Shown here one piece after another: positions 1,028-58,727 of a stretch of DNA of 64,000 nucleotides. The stretch lies in contig NZ_JADMNM010000005.1 in assembly GCF_016461955.1 (NCBI RefSeq), positions 62,001 to 126,000 of the forward strand, given 5' to 3'. Within the stretch, counting starts at the first letter, position 1. Every line of letters starts with the position of its first letter. Source of the DNA: Qipengyuania sp. YIM B01966 (lineage in GTDB: Bacteria > Pseudomonadota > Alphaproteobacteria > Sphingomonadales > Sphingomonadaceae). A model generated the notes under the pieces. That model made no database searches. It saw nothing but the letters and a program-made list of their open reading frames with translations, and was not told the DNA's origin. A program made the translations under genes and the position numbers.

Positions 1028-1031
1028 TTGG

Positions 1032-1133
1032 CCATCCCCGGGGAGCCTGCGCCGTTTGAACTGGGCTGAGAGGTGGGTTTCGCACCCCACGACCCGTCGA
1101 ACCTGAACCCGTTAGCACGGGCGGAGGGAGGGT
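1032..1133 (+). promoter_or_regulatory. TPP riboswitch (THI element)
   Basis: The conserved core of the TPP aptamer is readable. GGGGAGCC is at 1040-1047, the pyrimidine-sensing GGCTGAGA follows at about 1054, then an extended P3 arm (GGTGGG with CCCAC), the pyrophosphate-sensing GAACCTGA, and GTTAGCACGGGCGGAGGGA closing the structure. CCATCCC at 1032-1038 can pair with GGGAGGG near 1126-1132 as P1 (one mismatch). It lies 60 bases upstream of thiC, the usual target. Thiamine pyrophosphate binding should lower thiC expression. Confidence 0.95.
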
Positions 1134-1162
1134 CGCCGGTCGCCGCCAGGATACCGCTGCCC

Positions 1163-36831: not shown

Positions 36832-37042
36832 CCGCCCCCTCTGTCGGGAAACCTGAGAGCTTGGCCGGCGCGCCGTTGCCGGCAGGCGGGCTTACCCCTT
36901 CGGTGGTGCGTAGCGCGGGTGAGCGCACGGCACGCTTTCCAGAGTGTCAGACGAGACGAGCGGTCCGTTGGCCTGAGAGTTTCCGGGGCGGTTGCTCCTT
37001 CGGCGCCGAACCATGCAGCGCACGGCCCGGTCTCTCCCACTC
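36832..37042 (-). promoter_or_regulatory. Tandem glycine riboswitch
   Basis: The transcript (minus strand) carries two glycine aptamers in a row. The first begins GGGAGAGACCGGG near 37036, has GCGCCGAAGGAGCAA and closes with GGAAACTCTCAGGC. The second has CACCACCGAAGGGGTAAGCC and closes with AAGCTCTCAGGTTTCCCGAC, then an AGAGGGGGCG end. Both GCCGAAGG/ACCGAAGG and CTCTCAGG cores are classic. Glycine binding turns on gcv expression in known cases. It lies 52 bases before gcvT. Confidence 0.95.
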
Positions 37043-37137
37043 ATCCGCCCGCGCGAGAATCGCAAACTACCCGCACGGAAGACGCCGCAGCCCTGCGCGA
37101 TTGGGGCGCGCTCGTCAATCGCTCAGCGAGGCGCTGC

Positions 37138-53199: not shown

Positions 53200-53316
53200 G
53201 TGGACTCGTGAATGGCACCGGCCGGCGAACCAAGGACCCGGCGCTGCTTGACAAACCTTCCCAATCACAGAACGGGCTAACCGAGGCTGAACGCCGTCGC
53301 CGTGGCAGGAAAGACC

Positions 53317-54474
53317 GTGACAACGCCCGAGATAAGCATCACCGCCGTCACCGACAAGGCCGGGCGGGCCGCCTTCGTTGACCTCGGCCGCAGCTTTGCG
53401 GGCCAGACGCCCCACTCGGTGCCGCAATTGCGCTCCGAGCTGCTCGAGCTGGTCGATCCTGGCAAAAACCCCTTTTTCGGCCATGCCGACGTGCAATTGT
53501 TCATCGCCCATCGCGCGGGCCGGCCGGTAGGGCGCATCTCGGCGCATATCGACCGCCTGGCGCTGGTCCAGCCGCCTGAACAGGGCATGGGTCCGGGAAC
53601 GGGCAATTTCGGCTATTTCGACGCTGCCGACGAACAGGTTGCCCGCGCGCTGCTGGCGCGCGCGGAGCAGTGGCTGCGCGAGCACGGGATGAACCGCGCC
53701 CTCGGGCCGATCTCGCTATCGATCTGGGAAGAGCCGGGGCTGCTGGTGGCGGGCCACGACCATGCGCCATCGCTGCTGATGGGGCACCATCCGCCGCATT
53801 ATCAGGGCTGGATCGAAGGCGCTGGGTACACTCCGGCCAAGCGGCTGCTGACCTATCGCCTACCGATCACCGGCGATTTCCCGCCCCTGATCGCGCGGAT
53901 CGTCCAGTCGGGCGAACGCAATCCGAAGATCGCCCTGCGCCGCGCGGGCGAAGTCGACTACGAGGGCGATGTGCGGATTATCCTCGCGATCCTCAACGAT
54001 GCGTGGTCGGACAATTGGGGCTTTGTCCCCTTCACCGACCGCGAAATCGCCTATGCGGCTAAGAAGCTCAAACCGCTGGTCCACCCCGAGCTGGTGCGTA
54101 TTGCCGAGGTCGAGGGCGAGCCGGTCGCGTTCATGCTGACCTTCCCCGACATGAACGAGTTGCTCGCGCGGATCGATGGCCAGCTGTTTCCGTTGGGCTG
54201 GCTGCGCGCGCTGCGCTGGATGCGCCGGCCGCGCGCAAAGACCATGCGGGTGCCGCTGATGGGCGTGCTCAAGAAACTTCAGAACTCGCGCCTTGCCAGC
54301 CAGCTCGCTTTCATGATGATCGAATCGATCCGCCACGACGCCACCCGTCAGTTCGGCGCGACCGAGGGCGAGTTCGGCTGGATTCTCGAGGACAATAAGG
54401 GGATGGTCGCGATCGCCGAAGCGATCGATGCGCGGATTAGCCGCGAATATCTGATCTACGAAAAAGCGCTGTAA
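53317..54474 (+). CDS. GNAT-fold acyltransferase-like protein
   Basis: The protein of about 385 residues has an N-terminal half with FVDLGRSFAGQTPHSVPQLRSEL and VGRISAHIDRLA, and a C-terminal half with EVEGEPVAFMLTFPDMNELL. Both look like GNAT N-acyltransferase elements. Similar proteins are found in alphaproteobacteria, sometimes labelled dATP pyrophosphohydrolase without evidence. GTG 53317 is chosen because AGGAAAG lies directly upstream; GTG 53302 is in frame as well. The EcfG-type promoter of the next gene follows it. Confidence 0.7.
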   Translation: MTTPEISITAVTDKAGRAAFVDLGRSFAGQTPHSVPQLRSELLELVDPGKNPFFGHADVQLFIAHRAGRPVGRISAHIDRLALVQPPEQGMGPGTGNFGYFDAADEQVARALLARAEQWLREHGMNRALGPISLSIWEEPGLLVAGHDHAPSLLMGHHPPHYQGWIEGAGYTPAKRLLTYRLPITGDFPPLIARIVQSGERNPKIALRRAGEVDYEGDVRIILAILNDAWSDNWGFVPFTDREIAYAAKKLKPLVHPELVRIAEVEGEPVAFMLTFPDMNELLARIDGQLFPLGWLRALRWMRRPRAKTMRVPLMGVLKKLQNSRLASQLAFMMIESIRHDATRQFGATEGEFGWILEDNKGMVAIAEAIDARISREYLIYEKAL

Positions 54475-54491: not shown

Positions 54492-54517
54492 GGAACCAGC
54501 CGCGGCCATATCCCGTT
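54492..54517 (+). promoter_or_regulatory. EcfG-type promoter of the response regulator gene
   Basis: GGAAC at 54492-54496, 17 bases, then CGTT at 54514-54517. This is the general stress sigma (EcfG) consensus. It lies 60 bases upstream of the single-domain response regulator start. Confidence 0.8.
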
Positions 54518-54577: not shown

Positions 54578-55009
54578 ATGAGCAGGAAAGCGCCAGCCGT
54601 AGAAGGGGCCACGCCGTTCAACCGCGCGCTGGTGGTCGAAGATGACGGCCTCATCGCGATGACGATCGAACAGGCGCTGCTCGATGCCGGATGCGCGGAA
54701 GTGCGGTTGTCCGCTTCAACGGTAGATGCGATGGACGTGTTGCGCGCGTGGCATCCTGACGTCGTCGTGCTCGACGTCCACCTCTCGGACCGCAACGATG
54801 GCTGGGCGATTGCGGAACTGCTGCGCGAGCTGGGTCCGTCGCGGCCGCAGATCATCTTTTCGACCGGGGCCCCCGATGCCATCCCGCCGCACGTCGCCGA
54901 GCTCGGAAGTGTGCTCGAAAAGCCGTACCAAGCCGATGCGTTGATCGCATTGCTCCGCCAGCCGGCCAAAAGCGGGCTGCTATCGCGCATAAAGAACGCG
55001 CTTCAATGA
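54578..55009 (+). CDS. Single-domain response regulator
   Basis: The 143-residue protein is a receiver domain only: VVEDDGLIAM (acidic pocket), phosphorylation site Asp66 in VVVLDVHLS, a threonine in IIFSTGAPDA and the lysine in LEKPYQ. FxTGxx after strand 4 resembles the FAT GUY single-domain regulators (SdrG type) that tune the general stress response in sphingomonads. The EcfG promoter upstream and the phyR gene downstream support this. Confidence 0.85.
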   Translation: MSRKAPAVEGATPFNRALVVEDDGLIAMTIEQALLDAGCAEVRLSASTVDAMDVLRAWHPDVVVLDVHLSDRNDGWAIAELLRELGPSRPQIIFSTGAPDAIPPHVAELGSVLEKPYQADALIALLRQPAKSGLLSRIKNALQ

Positions 55010-55047: not shown

Positions 55048-55132
55048 AAAAAAAAGGCCTTCGTCTGCGACGAAGGCCTTTTGGGATCGTATCACTGCCG
55101 CTTGGACGGGAGGGGGGTCTCGGCGGTGATAT
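55048..55132 (-). ncRNA. Predicted general stress small RNA (GsrN-like)
   Basis: An RNA of about 85 bases is predicted on the minus strand between the response regulator gene and phyR. The promoter is GGAAC-N16-CATT (55163 to 55139), an EcfG match with one mismatch. The RNA would open with TATCAC (55131-55126) paired to GTGATA (55095-55090) and GCCG with CGGC, leaving a 20-base loop AGACCCCCCTCCCGTCCAAG that shows a C-rich, anti-Shine-Dalgarno-like stretch. A second hairpin, AAAAGGCCTTCGTC / GACGAAGGCCTTTT, is followed by eight Ts (55055-55048), a strong terminator. Layout matches GsrN of Caulobacter (sigma-T controlled, C-rich 5' loop). No coding sequence fits here. Expression is not shown. 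Confidence 0.6.
55052..55082. terminator. Strong hairpin terminator, best on the minus strand
   Basis: A perfect 14-base stem with loop TGC (plus strand) lies at 55052-55082. On the minus strand it is followed by eight Ts, and on the plus strand by none beyond the TTTT in the stem. It ends the predicted sRNA and can also end the response regulator transcript. Confidence 0.85.
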
Positions 55133-55138
55133 AACAAT

Positions 55139-55163
55139 AATGAACCGCCCGCAGGATGGTTCC
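55139..55163 (-). promoter_or_regulatory. EcfG-like promoter of the predicted sRNA
   Basis: On the minus strand GGAAC (55163-55159), 16 bases, then CATT (55142-55139), one change from the CGTT consensus. The spacer shares GGGCGGTT with the nepR promoter. Transcription would start near 55132, exactly where the first sRNA hairpin begins. Confidence 0.55.
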
Positions 55164-55288
55164 CGACGGGCGAATGAAATTTCACGCGCAGCCCGGCGCA
55201 TCGGCGGCGCAGGTTGTCAAACGGTGCGCAGTCTGCTCTTTGCGCCGTCATTCATCTGCCGCGCTCGGCGGCTATCCGTGGGAACTAC

Positions 55289-56089
55289 ATGATGTCTCTT
55301 GGCGACCAGATTGCCTCCAACCTCCCTTATCTGCGCCGCTACGCGCGCGCGCTGACCGGTTCGCAGGCGACAGGCGATTCCTTCGTCCGTGCCACGCTCG
55401 AAGCCGCTCTGGCCGATAGCGAGCTCAAGGCGTCGCTCGAACATGGCCGCGTGCCGCTGTACCGCGCATTCAACAAGGTCTGGTCGAGCGCGTATATGGA
55501 GGTTCCGGCCGAAGACGCCGAAACCGGAAACATGCACGAGATGGCAGCGCATGAACGCTTGCGCGTGGTGACGCCCCTCAACCGGCAGGCGCTGCTGTTA
55601 TCGACGCTTGAAGATTTTTCGACACCCGAAGTGGCCCAGATCATGGATCTCGGCGAGGACGAGGTCGATGGCCTGATCCAGGAAGCGGTTGCGGAAATCG
55701 ATCGCGAATCGACCACCAGCGTGCTGATCATCGAGGATGAGCCCCTGATCTCCATGCAACTGGAAGATCTCGTTCGGTCGCTCGGTCATGACATCTGTGG
55801 CACTGCGGCAACGCGCACGCAGGCGCAGGAGGTGGTGGCTGAATGCACACCTGGGCTGGTGCTGGCCGATATCCAGCTGGCGGATGGCTCTTCGGGGCTC
55901 GATGCGGTGGACGACATCCTGGCGATGGGCAGCGTCCCGGTGATCTTCATCACTGCCTATCCCGAGCGGCTGCTGACCGGGGATCGGCCCGAACCGACCT
56001 ATTTGGTAACCAAGCCGTTCCAGGAATCGACCGTGCGTACCGCAATCAGCCAGGCATTGTTCTTCGGATCGAGCCGCCCCATCGATTGA
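55289..56089 (+). CDS. phyR: General stress response anti-anti-sigma regulator PhyR
   Basis: The 266-residue protein has a sigma-like N-terminal domain (IASNLPYLRRYARALTGSQ, then DFSTPEVAQIMDLGEDEVDG) and a C-terminal receiver (VLIIEDEPLISM; phosphorylation site Asp194 in LADIQLAD; lysine in LVTKPF). When phosphorylated, PhyR binds NepR and frees EcfG. ATG 55289 follows GGGAA; 55292 is also possible. It is followed by the convergent kinase gene. nepR-ecfG lie beyond it. Confidence 0.96.
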   Translation: MMSLGDQIASNLPYLRRYARALTGSQATGDSFVRATLEAALADSELKASLEHGRVPLYRAFNKVWSSAYMEVPAEDAETGNMHEMAAHERLRVVTPLNRQALLLSTLEDFSTPEVAQIMDLGEDEVDGLIQEAVAEIDRESTTSVLIIEDEPLISMQLEDLVRSLGHDICGTAATRTQAQEVVAECTPGLVLADIQLADGSSGLDAVDDILAMGSVPVIFITAYPERLLTGDRPEPTYLVTKPFQESTVRTAISQALFFGSSRPID

Positions 56090-56110: not shown

Positions 56111-57763
56111 TCAGCCTCGCGCGCGGATCTGGAAATCGTTGGCCAGCCGCACGGGTACGCGCAGCCGGCAGCGCACGCCCCGGGGATCGAACTGAAGTTC
56201 CACCGGGTGCTTCAACTCGTGCGCGAGGATCTTCTGGATCAGGTCCATGCCGAAGCCCCGATTCGGCGTATCGGCAACTTGTGGTCCGCCTGTCTCAACC
56301 CAGCTTAGCTCGACCAAATTGTCGGCCACCAGCTGCCAATCAATGCTGACCCGCCCGTCAGGCACGCTGAGGGCGCCGTATTTGGCCGCGTTGGTTGACA
56401 GCTCGTGCAGGGCCAGCCCCAGCGACAGGGCATCGTTCGGCGCCAGCTCGACATCGGGCCCGCTGCTCGTCACGGCGGCGCTGTCACCCTGCACGTATGG
56501 GGCGAGCTCTGCCCGCACCAGATCGCTGATCGGTGTCTCACCCCATTCCGATTGCGTCAGCAAATCGTGCGTTGCCGATAGTGCCCTGATGCGGCCATCC
56601 AGGGTATCGGCAAAATCATCCAGCCGCGTCGCCCGTCGCCGGGTCAGCGCAATGATCGACAGGACGTTGGCGAGGGTGTTTTTGACGCGGTGGTTCAGTT
56701 CCCGGGTCAGAGTGTTGCGGATCGAATTCTGTTCCGCCAGCCAGCGCAGCGAGGACTGGTCCTCCACCGCCTGCTGCGTCAGCAAGCGCGCGATCAACAT
56801 CAGCAGGCTGGCGACCATCAGCCCGAAAATGAGGGTGAGCATGGACATCTGCGACAGGGCGGAGCCGCGCGAGGATTCGACCTCGAGCATCATCGTCCGG
56901 TTGGCGATCTGGACGGGACGAGTGATCGTCATCCCGGTAAGGCGTTCGGGCGGCAACTCGGCGATGAGGGTGCCCCCGTCGCCCAGATGGTCGTCATAGA
57001 GGCGAACCCCTTTGTCTCCCTGGTTTTCAAGGATCAGCGCCGATTCCAGAAAGTCTTTGGCGTTGAACGGGCTGTAGATGAACCCTGCCAGGCGTTCGCC
57101 TCCCCCCGCGCTCATCATTACCGGCATGTAGATCAGGAAGCCGGGTGCTTTCCGACGGCCCTCCTGTTGCAGCACAACCATGCCGCTGGCGGTCGGTCGG
57201 CCGCTTAGCACCGAACTGTCCATCGCCTCGCGGCGGACGGCTTCGGAATACATGTCGTAGCCCAGCGCCCGGCGGTTTCGCGGGGTATCCGGCAGCAAAT
57301 AGGTTACCGGAAACAAGATCGCGCGCGCATTTGTCGGAGCAGGGCGGATCTTCACCTCGCCCGGAGCGCCGCTCAGCCGGTCGCGTTCGAATTCCGGCGC
57401 GTCGGCTGCGTTCACCGCTTGGGCCCAGCCCAGCCCCTCGACCCCGCGATAGTCGCTGTCCATCCGCAATTCGCTGACGAACCGGGTAAAGATATCGGGC
57501 TGCACTTCACCGGCCGTGGAGAACAACGCTGCGCCGGCGCGCAGGTACGATGATGCTGTCGCCCCGCGCCGCTCCAGCGCCGAGGCGACGGCGCGCGCGG
57601 TTTCCCGCATATTGGCCTGCTCCTTGAGCCGCGCCCCGCGCTCAATTGCAAATACGCTGAGCAGGGTGATCGACATGACCAGCAGAAATATGGCCACCGG
57701 CACAGCGCGCGGATATTCGATCAGCCAACGCCGGGTCAGACCTCGGTCTACTGTACTGGCCAC
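56111..57763 (-). CDS. CHASE-domain sensor histidine kinase of the HWE/HisKA_2 type (PhyR-activating kinase)
   Basis: The protein of about 550 residues has an N-terminal helix, a periplasmic CHASE domain (FVSELRMDSDYRGVEGLGWA, GYDMYSEAVRREAM), a second helix near residue 310, and a kinase core. The phosphoacceptor histidine is in ELNHRVKNTLANVLSI, with the HRxxN form of PhyR-activating kinases. The ATPase has ALHELSTNAAKYGAL and GFGMDLIQKIL. It probably senses a small ligand or stress and feeds PhyR. The start is GTG 57763 with AGGGA upstream. An EcfG-type promoter on its strand lies at 57854-57878. Confidence 0.88.
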   Translation of the reverse strand: MASTVDRGLTRRWLIEYPRAVPVAIFLLVMSITLLSVFAIERGARLKEQANMRETARAVASALERRGATASSYLRAGAALFSTAGEVQPDIFTRFVSELRMDSDYRGVEGLGWAQAVNAADAPEFERDRLSGAPGEVKIRPAPTNARAILFPVTYLLPDTPRNRRALGYDMYSEAVRREAMDSSVLSGRPTASGMVVLQQEGRRKAPGFLIYMPVMMSAGGGERLAGFIYSPFNAKDFLESALILENQGDKGVRLYDDHLGDGGTLIAELPPERLTGMTITRPVQIANRTMMLEVESSRGSALSQMSMLTLIFGLMVASLLMLIARLLTQQAVEDQSSLRWLAEQNSIRNTLTRELNHRVKNTLANVLSIIALTRRRATRLDDFADTLDGRIRALSATHDLLTQSEWGETPISDLVRAELAPYVQGDSAAVTSSGPDVELAPNDALSLGLALHELSTNAAKYGALSVPDGRVSIDWQLVADNLVELSWVETGGPQVADTPNRGFGMDLIQKILAHELKHPVELQFDPRGVRCRLRVPVRLANDFQIRARG

Positions 57764-57851
57764 GTCCGTTCCCTGTTTCAAGCAGCGCCTGCACCGGCAG
57801 GACACTTGCCCTGAAAATCGCCATTGACTAGACGCGAAACCGGTCGTGCGG

Positions 57852-57876
57852 GGAACAACGCTACGGGCGGTTCGTT
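57852..57876 (+). promoter_or_regulatory. EcfG-type promoter of nepR-ecfG
   Basis: GGAAC at 57852-57856, 16 bases, then CGTT at 57873-57876. This gives autoregulation of nepR-ecfG by EcfG. It overlaps the opposing kinase promoter. Confidence 0.85.
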
Positions 57877-57954: not shown

Positions 57955-58128
57955 ATGGATTTCGAAGGTCACGCGTCAGCCGGGTCAGCCCCGAAGCCTG
58001 TGCGAAAAAACCATGCCGCGCCGGCCTGGGCATCGGGGCTGCGCCAGCTTTACGACCAAGTCATAGAAGAGCCCCTGCCCGACAGTTTCAAGGACCTGCT
58101 CGACAAATTGGACCAACCCGACAGATGA
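57955..58128 (+). CDS. nepR: Anti-sigma factor NepR
   Basis: The 57-residue protein has the NepR core WASGLRQLYDQVIEEPLPDS followed by FKDLLDKLD. It holds EcfG until PhyR binds it. The N-terminus (MDFEGHASAGSAPKPV) is disordered. Its stop overlaps the ecfG start by four bases. The EcfG promoter lies about 80 bases upstream. Confidence 0.94.
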   Translation: MDFEGHASAGSAPKPVRKNHAAPAWASGLRQLYDQVIEEPLPDSFKDLLDKLDQPDR

Positions 58129-58727
58129 GCGAAGCCCGAACGGCCCGCGAGAAGGCCGATTTCAAACGCGAGCTGACCGAGGTCGTGCCGCACCTGCGGG
58201 CGTTCGCGCGCGGCCTCTGCGGACGGCCGGACATGGCCGACGATCTCGTGCAGGAGGCGTTGCTGAAGGCCTGGGCGGCTCAGGACCGGTTCGAGCCCGG
58301 CACATCCATGCGGGCGTGGACCTTCGTGATCCTGCGCAATGCCTATCTCACTGATATGCGCCGCAACCGCTTCCGCGGTGAATATGACGAGACGGTTGCC
58401 GAGCGCATTCTCACTGCGCCTGCTGGCCAGGAGGAGCCGATCCATCTGTCGGACATGCATCGCGCCTTGCTGACCCTGCCGCCTGAACGGCGCGAGGCGT
58501 TGCTTTTGGTCGGTGCCGGTGGCTTTTCGTACGAGGAGGCGGCCGAGATCTGCGGCTGTGCAGTGGGGACGATAAAGAGCCGGGTGGGCCGCGCACGGGC
58601 GGCGCTCAACGCCATGCTCGAGGACGGGACCATTCCCCGCCGAACGATTGATGATGATCCAGCCCATCGCGCGATCCTGCAAGAACTCGACGATGTGTCA
58701 GCAGGATACACCGGCACCGGAAAATAA
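58125..58727 (+). CDS. ecfG: General stress response sigma factor EcfG
   Basis: The 200-residue ECF sigma factor has region 2 (PDMADDLVQEALLKAWAAQD, MRRNRFRGEYDE) and region 4 (LTLPPERREALLLVGAGGFS, then AVGTIKSRVGRAR). It directs transcription from GGAAC-N16/17-CGTT promoters. It is coupled to nepR by the ATGA overlap. It is autoregulated. Confidence 0.95.
   Translation: MSEARTAREKADFKRELTEVVPHLRAFARGLCGRPDMADDLVQEALLKAWAAQDRFEPGTSMRAWTFVILRNAYLTDMRRNRFRGEYDETVAERILTAPAGQEEPIHLSDMHRALLTLPPERREALLLVGAGGFSYEEAAEICGCAVGTIKSRVGRARAALNAMLEDGTIPRRTIDDDPAHRAILQELDDVSAGYTGTGK

Follow-up and report, generated by a model that had tools for sequence, protein, structure and literature searches.

A conserved predicted small RNA of the general stress response locus in Qipengyuania and related sphingomonads

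In the general stress response (GSR) of alphaproteobacteria, stress activates PhyR, and PhyR in turn releases EcfG from NepR, an established pathway. Small RNAs (sRNAs) of the CcsR/alpha-r14 kind, which occur in the same class, carry anti-Shine-Dalgarno loops, that is, C-rich loops able to pair with Shine-Dalgarno (SD) sequences. In Caulobacter, the C-rich 5' loop of the sRNA GsrN pairs with the G-rich start of the katG mRNA and raises KatG, and the same paper places GsrN homologues typically near the GSR locus, proposes GsrN-like RNAs in the Rhizobiaceae and states that Erythrobacter litoralis has no apparent gsrN-like gene (PMC5869019). Non-coding RNAs (ncRNAs) controlled by EcfG, with EcfG dependence shown in mutants, are described in Rhizobium etli (PMC3892343), and the RpoE sRNAs MicA, RybB and MicL of Escherichia coli are presented as a repressing arm for an activating extracytoplasmic function (ECF) sigma factor (PMC8103513). 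An intergenic sRNA of Paracoccus (no. 60) is listed with homologues in Rhodobacteraceae and in sphingomonads including Sphingopyxis and Sphingomonas (PMC5107571). Here we report that the minus strand of a 64,000-nucleotide (nt) stretch of Qipengyuania sp. YIM B01966 (the window) holds, between a regulator gene of the SdrG type and phyR, a conserved RNA gene with promoter sequence and structure. That it is a dedicated RNA gene of the GSR locus with an EcfG-type promoter is well supported; the predicted sRNA represents a conserved family belonging to this locus, its promoter is both conserved and unusual, and neither our literature search nor Rfam yielded a description of it.

The gene, of about 85 nt (55048..55132, minus strand), was delimited by its fold and by two covariance models, R1 (built from an alignment of 30 loci, A1) and R2 (built from 58 matches), with the start placed from the promoter. 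Akin to GsrN as its paper describes it (about 100 nt), it has an EcfG-type promoter, an exposed C-rich 5' loop, an intrinsic terminator and a place near the GSR locus, a likeness of build and setting only. It differs from GsrN in its loop, CCCCCCUCCCGUCC, in a -10 box that is mostly CATT, and in that katG is not a general target. An earlier note on this DNA had suggested a counterpart of GsrN; build and setting bear this out, whereas katG, the target of GsrN, is missing from the window's genome. The EcfG dependence shown for the RNAs of R. etli is here deduced from the promoter, and in model searches of samples of the class neither R1 nor R2 had a match outside the window's family at an E-value of 1e-4 or better. 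MicA, RybB and MicL, compared by description only, belong to another sigma factor and another lineage and have known targets; the CcsR/alpha-r14 kind differs in promoter and locus, and no Rfam family reached threshold here; and, as regards Paracoccus sRNA no. 60, R1 and R2 had no convincing match outside the window's family.

The note had also drawn the parts of the gene, and these were recovered. The promoter GGAAC-N16-CATT lies at 55163-55139 on the minus strand, with GGAAC as its -35 box (55159..55163) and CATT as its -10 box (55139..55142) after a spacer of 16. Seven bases after CATT begins the 5' hairpin (55131-55090; arms 55131-55121 and 55100-55090), whose 20-nt C-rich loop AGACCCCCCTCCCGTCCAAG (55101..55120), with the core CCCCCCTCCC, is the presumed pairing site. 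A single-stranded linker, CGATCCC (55083..55089), separates this hairpin from the intrinsic terminator (55048..55082), a 14-pair stem (55082-55052) followed by a run of eight Ts (55055-55048). A stretch of 88 nt had a folding energy of -35.4 kcal/mol, whereas its shuffles averaged -16.1 (z -7.9; none of 200 as low), and most of this energy belongs to the terminator, because the first 50 nt folded alone gave -13.3 kcal/mol. No family of Rfam 15 reached its gathering score in the region: the best score was 24.3 bits for RF02867 on the plus strand (cut-off 48), and on the RNA strand RF01859 scored 20.2 (cut-off 55), RF02867 20 (48) and RF01521 20 (50).

Homologues carry the same structure. In A1, two-sided changes were present in nine of the 12 consensus-stem pairs of the terminator, while the 5' stem varied little and had no two-sided change. 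A second alignment (A2), with more diverged copies fitted to the model and one locus (L422) that is probably a chance match, had two-sided changes in 16 of its 22 pairs, including five that belong to the 5' hairpin, a result reached by none of 500 shuffles; 96.5% of its paired cells could pair, compared to 34.5-52.8% when the structure was slid along the alignment. When 43 homologues picked for their divergence (A3) were folded one by one, at least eight pairs closed the loop in every one of them, by 26 distinct stems, and the C-rich motif was unpaired in 42, as an exposed loop in the 5' half. The 15-mer CCCCCTCCCGTCCAA was intact in 30/30 rows of A1 and 38/43 of A3. The stems thus change with compensation, and the C-rich loop is near constant. 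The linker CGATCCC was likewise found in all 30 rows of A1 and in 31 of the 43 in A3, among them L232, the copy that has diverged furthest, and a copy in genome G287 has a different stem and a different C-rich loop with the linker unchanged; it is possible that the linker is a second pairing site or a protein site. Loss of both hairpins and of the GGAAC box in close relatives, which would have spoken against the sRNA, was looked for, and blastn, the covariance models, the 43 folds and GGAAC in 147 of 147 loci all pointed to their retention.

A blastn search with 141 bases recovered the region from 63 of 149 genomes belonging to the window's family, and the covariance search, proposed earlier as a check, gave R1 matches at E 0.001 in 164 of the 397 genomes sampled from that family, 152 of them at 1.5e-12 or better. 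The remainder comprised two copies truncated by contig ends (G262 and G269) and ten weak matches (9e-4 to 3e-5); one of these, G287, is a diverged copy with a promoter, and of the other nine, the seven examined (all but G122 and G372) had no R1 match in the phyR loci retrieved. Among 28 family genomes picked for lacking a strong R1 match, 25 had phyR, and in 22 of these no R1 match better than E 0.07 was present in the fetched phyR loci. In the order, R2 matched 92 of 296 genomes (E 1e-4), each of them exactly once, and 24 of 79 genera were represented; in the class it matched four of 385 genomes (E 0.001), all in the window's family. Weak R1 matches outside the family (the best at 2.3e-4, in G599) were inspected at 17 loci, 16 of which had no GGAAC...CGTT; one weak match, L199, was rejected, as such a pattern lies near but the hairpin does not follow it. 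An exact-pattern scan of named genomes gave at least 118 stretches, 80 of them listed by name. Among the matches listed were Erythrobacter, Qipengyuania, Porphyrobacter, Croceibacterium, Croceicoccus, Altererythrobacter, Citromicrobium and others, which we take to be Erythrobacteraceae, as well as Novosphingobium and some metagenome-assembled genomes whose names stop at the rank of family, order or class; the names listed did not include E. litoralis, from which nothing follows in either direction. In a tree built from 63 selected PhyR rows, a branch with support 100/97 separated all 39 carriers from the remaining rows, and the nearest row outside, G017, is without the sRNA; G017 and L232 sit on long branches, and their exact placement is unsure.

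Promoter statistics were drawn from 148 loci (30 from blastn and 118 from the exact-pattern scan, some genomes counted twice), 147 of them with enough upstream sequence. GGAAC preceded the CACC of the hairpin in 147/147, at a distance of 35 nt in 141, 36 in five and 37 in one, and this fixed position goes beyond chance because the promoter was no part of the pattern used in the exact-pattern scan. The -10 box was CATT in 127, CGTT in ten, CGTA in eight and AATT in two, with a spacer of 16 in 145; the diverged copy in G287 has CGTT. In the neighbouring promoters of the same loci, searched with GGAAC-N16/17-C[GA]T[TA], CGTT was found in 76/78 for sdrG, 105/106 for phyR and 56/56 for nepR (pooled, 237 CGTT and two CATT among 240); this pattern found no promoter in 20/98, 31/137 and 3/59 loci, respectively. 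The difference between sRNA and neighbour boxes is large (Fisher 3e-85, over related and partly duplicated loci). A second peculiarity is an A/T tract, in the window AAATTT (55177..55182, minus strand), a candidate UP element 13 bp upstream of GGAAC. Across the 147 sRNA promoters the tract has the consensus AAAAatttt 10 bp upstream of GGAAC, and the mean A+T of this stretch is 0.70, compared to 0.39-0.46 at the sdrG, phyR and nepR promoters; among these four it is conserved at the sRNA promoter only. Beyond promoter and tract, no conservation was seen in the 150 nt upstream (132 of 143 rows after removal of near copies). In the in vitro experiments reported for Sphingopyxis granuli, EcfG transcribes a CATT promoter, and changing CGTT to CATT lowers transcription whereas changing CATT to CGTT raises it (PMC7083833). 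The sRNA promoter is thus of the EcfG type, with GGAAC in place and a -10 box that is sub-consensus but readable by EcfG, the weaker box by the Sphingopyxis data. The EcfG-like promoter of the earlier note accordingly stands for its fixed GGAAC and calls for care at CATT. Taken together with these published data, the promoter comparison suggests that a conserved weak -10 box and an A/T tract tune the promoter to strong EcfG activity; a conserved weak box helped by the tract is the simplest reading of this promoter.

We consider it likely, from the sequence and its variation, that the element is an EcfG-dependent base-pairing sRNA of the GSR, GsrN-like in build, which probably lets stressed cells adjust protein production by pairing with mRNAs. 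EcfG-RNA polymerase would transcribe it from GGAAC-N16-CATT, and the RNA would fold into a 5' hairpin displaying the fixed C-rich loop, a free linker and the terminator, as sequence and covariation indicate. The loop could then bind mRNAs by pairing with their G-rich stretches, in the simplest case in or close to the ribosome binding site, with an effect on translation; EcfG alone activates transcription, and the sRNA would add an arm able to repress too. Transcription, control by EcfG, base pairing and the direction of regulation are what we infer here. Control by EcfG is favoured because GGAAC with CGTT marks the promoters found for sdrG, phyR and nepR in these loci, because CGTT recurs at the sRNA itself in ten loci and in G287, and because EcfG reads CATT in vitro. 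Base pairing is favoured because the loop is preserved even where its stem varies, and because the C-rich loop of GsrN pairs with katG mRNA.

Several results weigh against this reading. The -10 box is CATT in 127 of 147 loci, unlike the CGTT of the neighbouring promoters. Sites for the loop complement TTGGACGGGAGGGGG with up to three mismatches were rarer in the window's own genome than those of the reversed control (63, including the sRNA gene, versus 126); 50 of the 63, read in context, gave only isolated three-mismatch candidates, one of which precedes a frame that we take from its sequence, unconfirmed, for adk. GGACGGGAG-N3-12-ATG was in slight excess over its reversed control in 40 carriers (87 versus 65 sites), and its 89 site-start pairs, with 47 frames of at least 60 amino acids, revealed no shared gene. 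The leaders of sdrG, phyR, a GNAT-like gene and the kinase gene of the locus had a median pairing like that of random local sequence, with 11% of 98 sdrG leaders under the 5% line, at most a hint of pairing. No katG match was present in the window's own genome of 2.44 Mb, one of three without katG among the 40 carriers examined, and in 30 carriers the computed pairing of katG leaders was like that of random sequence, with no EcfG box; this absence and this random-level pairing rule out katG as a general target. A loop so invariant also exceeds the need of most mRNA-pairing sRNAs and leaves room for another partner. A broader search with GGGAGGGG-N3-9-ATG in 30 carriers gave 331 sites against 76 for the reversed control, a control biased in that an SD-like motif before ATG must beat one before GTA; 70 of the 331 loci were read and held no conserved target gene, the clusters being four transposase-like loci (internal starts, two from one genome) and three transporter-like proteins, named by our own reading.

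The near invariance of the loop over many genera and the failure of the target searches to give a shared mRNA would both be expected of a structured RNA that is controlled by EcfG and acts by binding a protein or sponging another RNA, without pairing with mRNA. We regard this as unlikely, since the RNA resembles GsrN and other base-pairing sRNAs in its short size, its terminator end and its exposed C-rich loop, and no partner protein is indicated. The contrast between CATT at the sRNA and CGTT at its neighbours raises another alternative, transcription by a different ECF sigma factor that reads GGAAC and CATT; this appears improbable, given that the sRNA sits inside the GSR locus, that its box is CGTT or CGTA in 18 of 147 loci, and that Sphingopyxis EcfG transcribes a CATT promoter in vitro.

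The sdrG-type gene is convergent with the sRNA and the terminator stem is nearly symmetric, as if the region were a bidirectional terminator for sdrG without any sRNA. There is very little to recommend this explanation: 128 of 144 loci had runs of at least six Ts on the RNA side, whereas runs on the other side did not exceed four, so that the terminator belongs to the sRNA; promoter and 5' hairpin are conserved; and in three loci (L011, L012 and L018) the RNA is present with sdrG undetected and the next gene directly behind. Short open reading frames overlap the region, but that it is the mRNA of a very small protein or a leader peptide is barely credible, since, as the earlier note had held, no coding frame explains it: the C-run differs in length by single bases among homologues, each of the three frames is interrupted by stops (86, 70 and 42 of 143 loci), and the covariation of the stems fits an RNA.

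By Pfam and NCBIfam searches of its neighbours, the sRNA of the window lies in a complete GSR locus. Convergent with it is the gene of a single-domain response regulator (54578..55009, plus strand; PF00072), of the SdrG type by position and domain, for which all 25 NCBIfam matches shown were below cut-off; its EcfG-type promoter, GGAAC-N17-CGTT, lies at 54492-54517. Divergent from the sRNA is phyR (55289..56089, plus strand; PF22029, PF22233 and PF00072, with NF006623 over cut-off), followed by a CHASE-HWE histidine kinase gene (56111..57805, minus strand; PF03924 and PF07536), whose product we infer from its position to be the GSR sensor kinase. Then come nepR (57955..58128, plus strand; PF18557, with Pfam over and NCBIfam below cut-off), preceded by the nepR-ecfG promoter GGAAC-N16-CGTT (57852-57876), and, overlapping it by four bases, an ECF sigma factor gene (58125..58727, plus strand; PF04542 and PF08281), which is ecfG by its place behind nepR, none of the NCBIfam equivalogs shown being over cut-off. 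The gene at 53302-54474 had no match in Pfam or NCBIfam, and we call it GNAT-like, unconfirmed, from a reading of its sequence. Elsewhere in the window, Rfam detected a glycine riboswitch aptamer (36951-37049, minus strand) and a thiamine pyrophosphate (TPP) riboswitch (1029-1146, plus strand).

In typical carriers the sRNA is close to the core GSR regulator genes. Of 148 loci, 130 have phyR as the neighbour of the sRNA, and in the remaining 18 the sequence on that side is shorter than 1.1 kb. Many carriers (L004, L005, L008, L009, L032 and L038) have phyR 0.9-1.5 kb from the sRNA, versus 0.1-0.4 kb, and something gene-sized may lie between the two. In all 59 carrier loci with a detected nepR, this gene shared the strand of phyR and lay 2.8-4.6 kb away from the sRNA. 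Among 24 phyR loci of sphingomonads that lack the sRNA (L233 to L256), nine had a nepR detected upstream of phyR and divergent from it, at the position taken by the sRNA in carriers; a nepR promoter may thus have been the ancestor of the sRNA promoter or have been replaced by it.

A wider picture, which we put forward as tentative, is that the sRNA would be the missing repressing arm of the GSR in Erythrobacteraceae and Novosphingobium. It would be a new single-copy RNA family with a single origin, at the site occupied by a divergent nepR in other sphingomonads; its conserved sub-consensus -10 box would set a high threshold for its expression by EcfG, and its fixed loop might act broadly on SD sequences, with a reach beyond one or two mRNAs. 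In Caulobacter, GsrN is a demonstrated post-transcriptional arm of EcfG, and ncRNAs controlled by EcfG are documented in R. etli. A single-copy RNA in the GSR locus over many genera, Erythrobacter species included, makes the question directly testable in harmless bacteria that can be cultured. The sRNA promoter, in turn, offers a naturally occurring example of a -10 box that departs from the consensus yet is conserved, and in vitro measurements of box preference exist for its presumed sigma factor.
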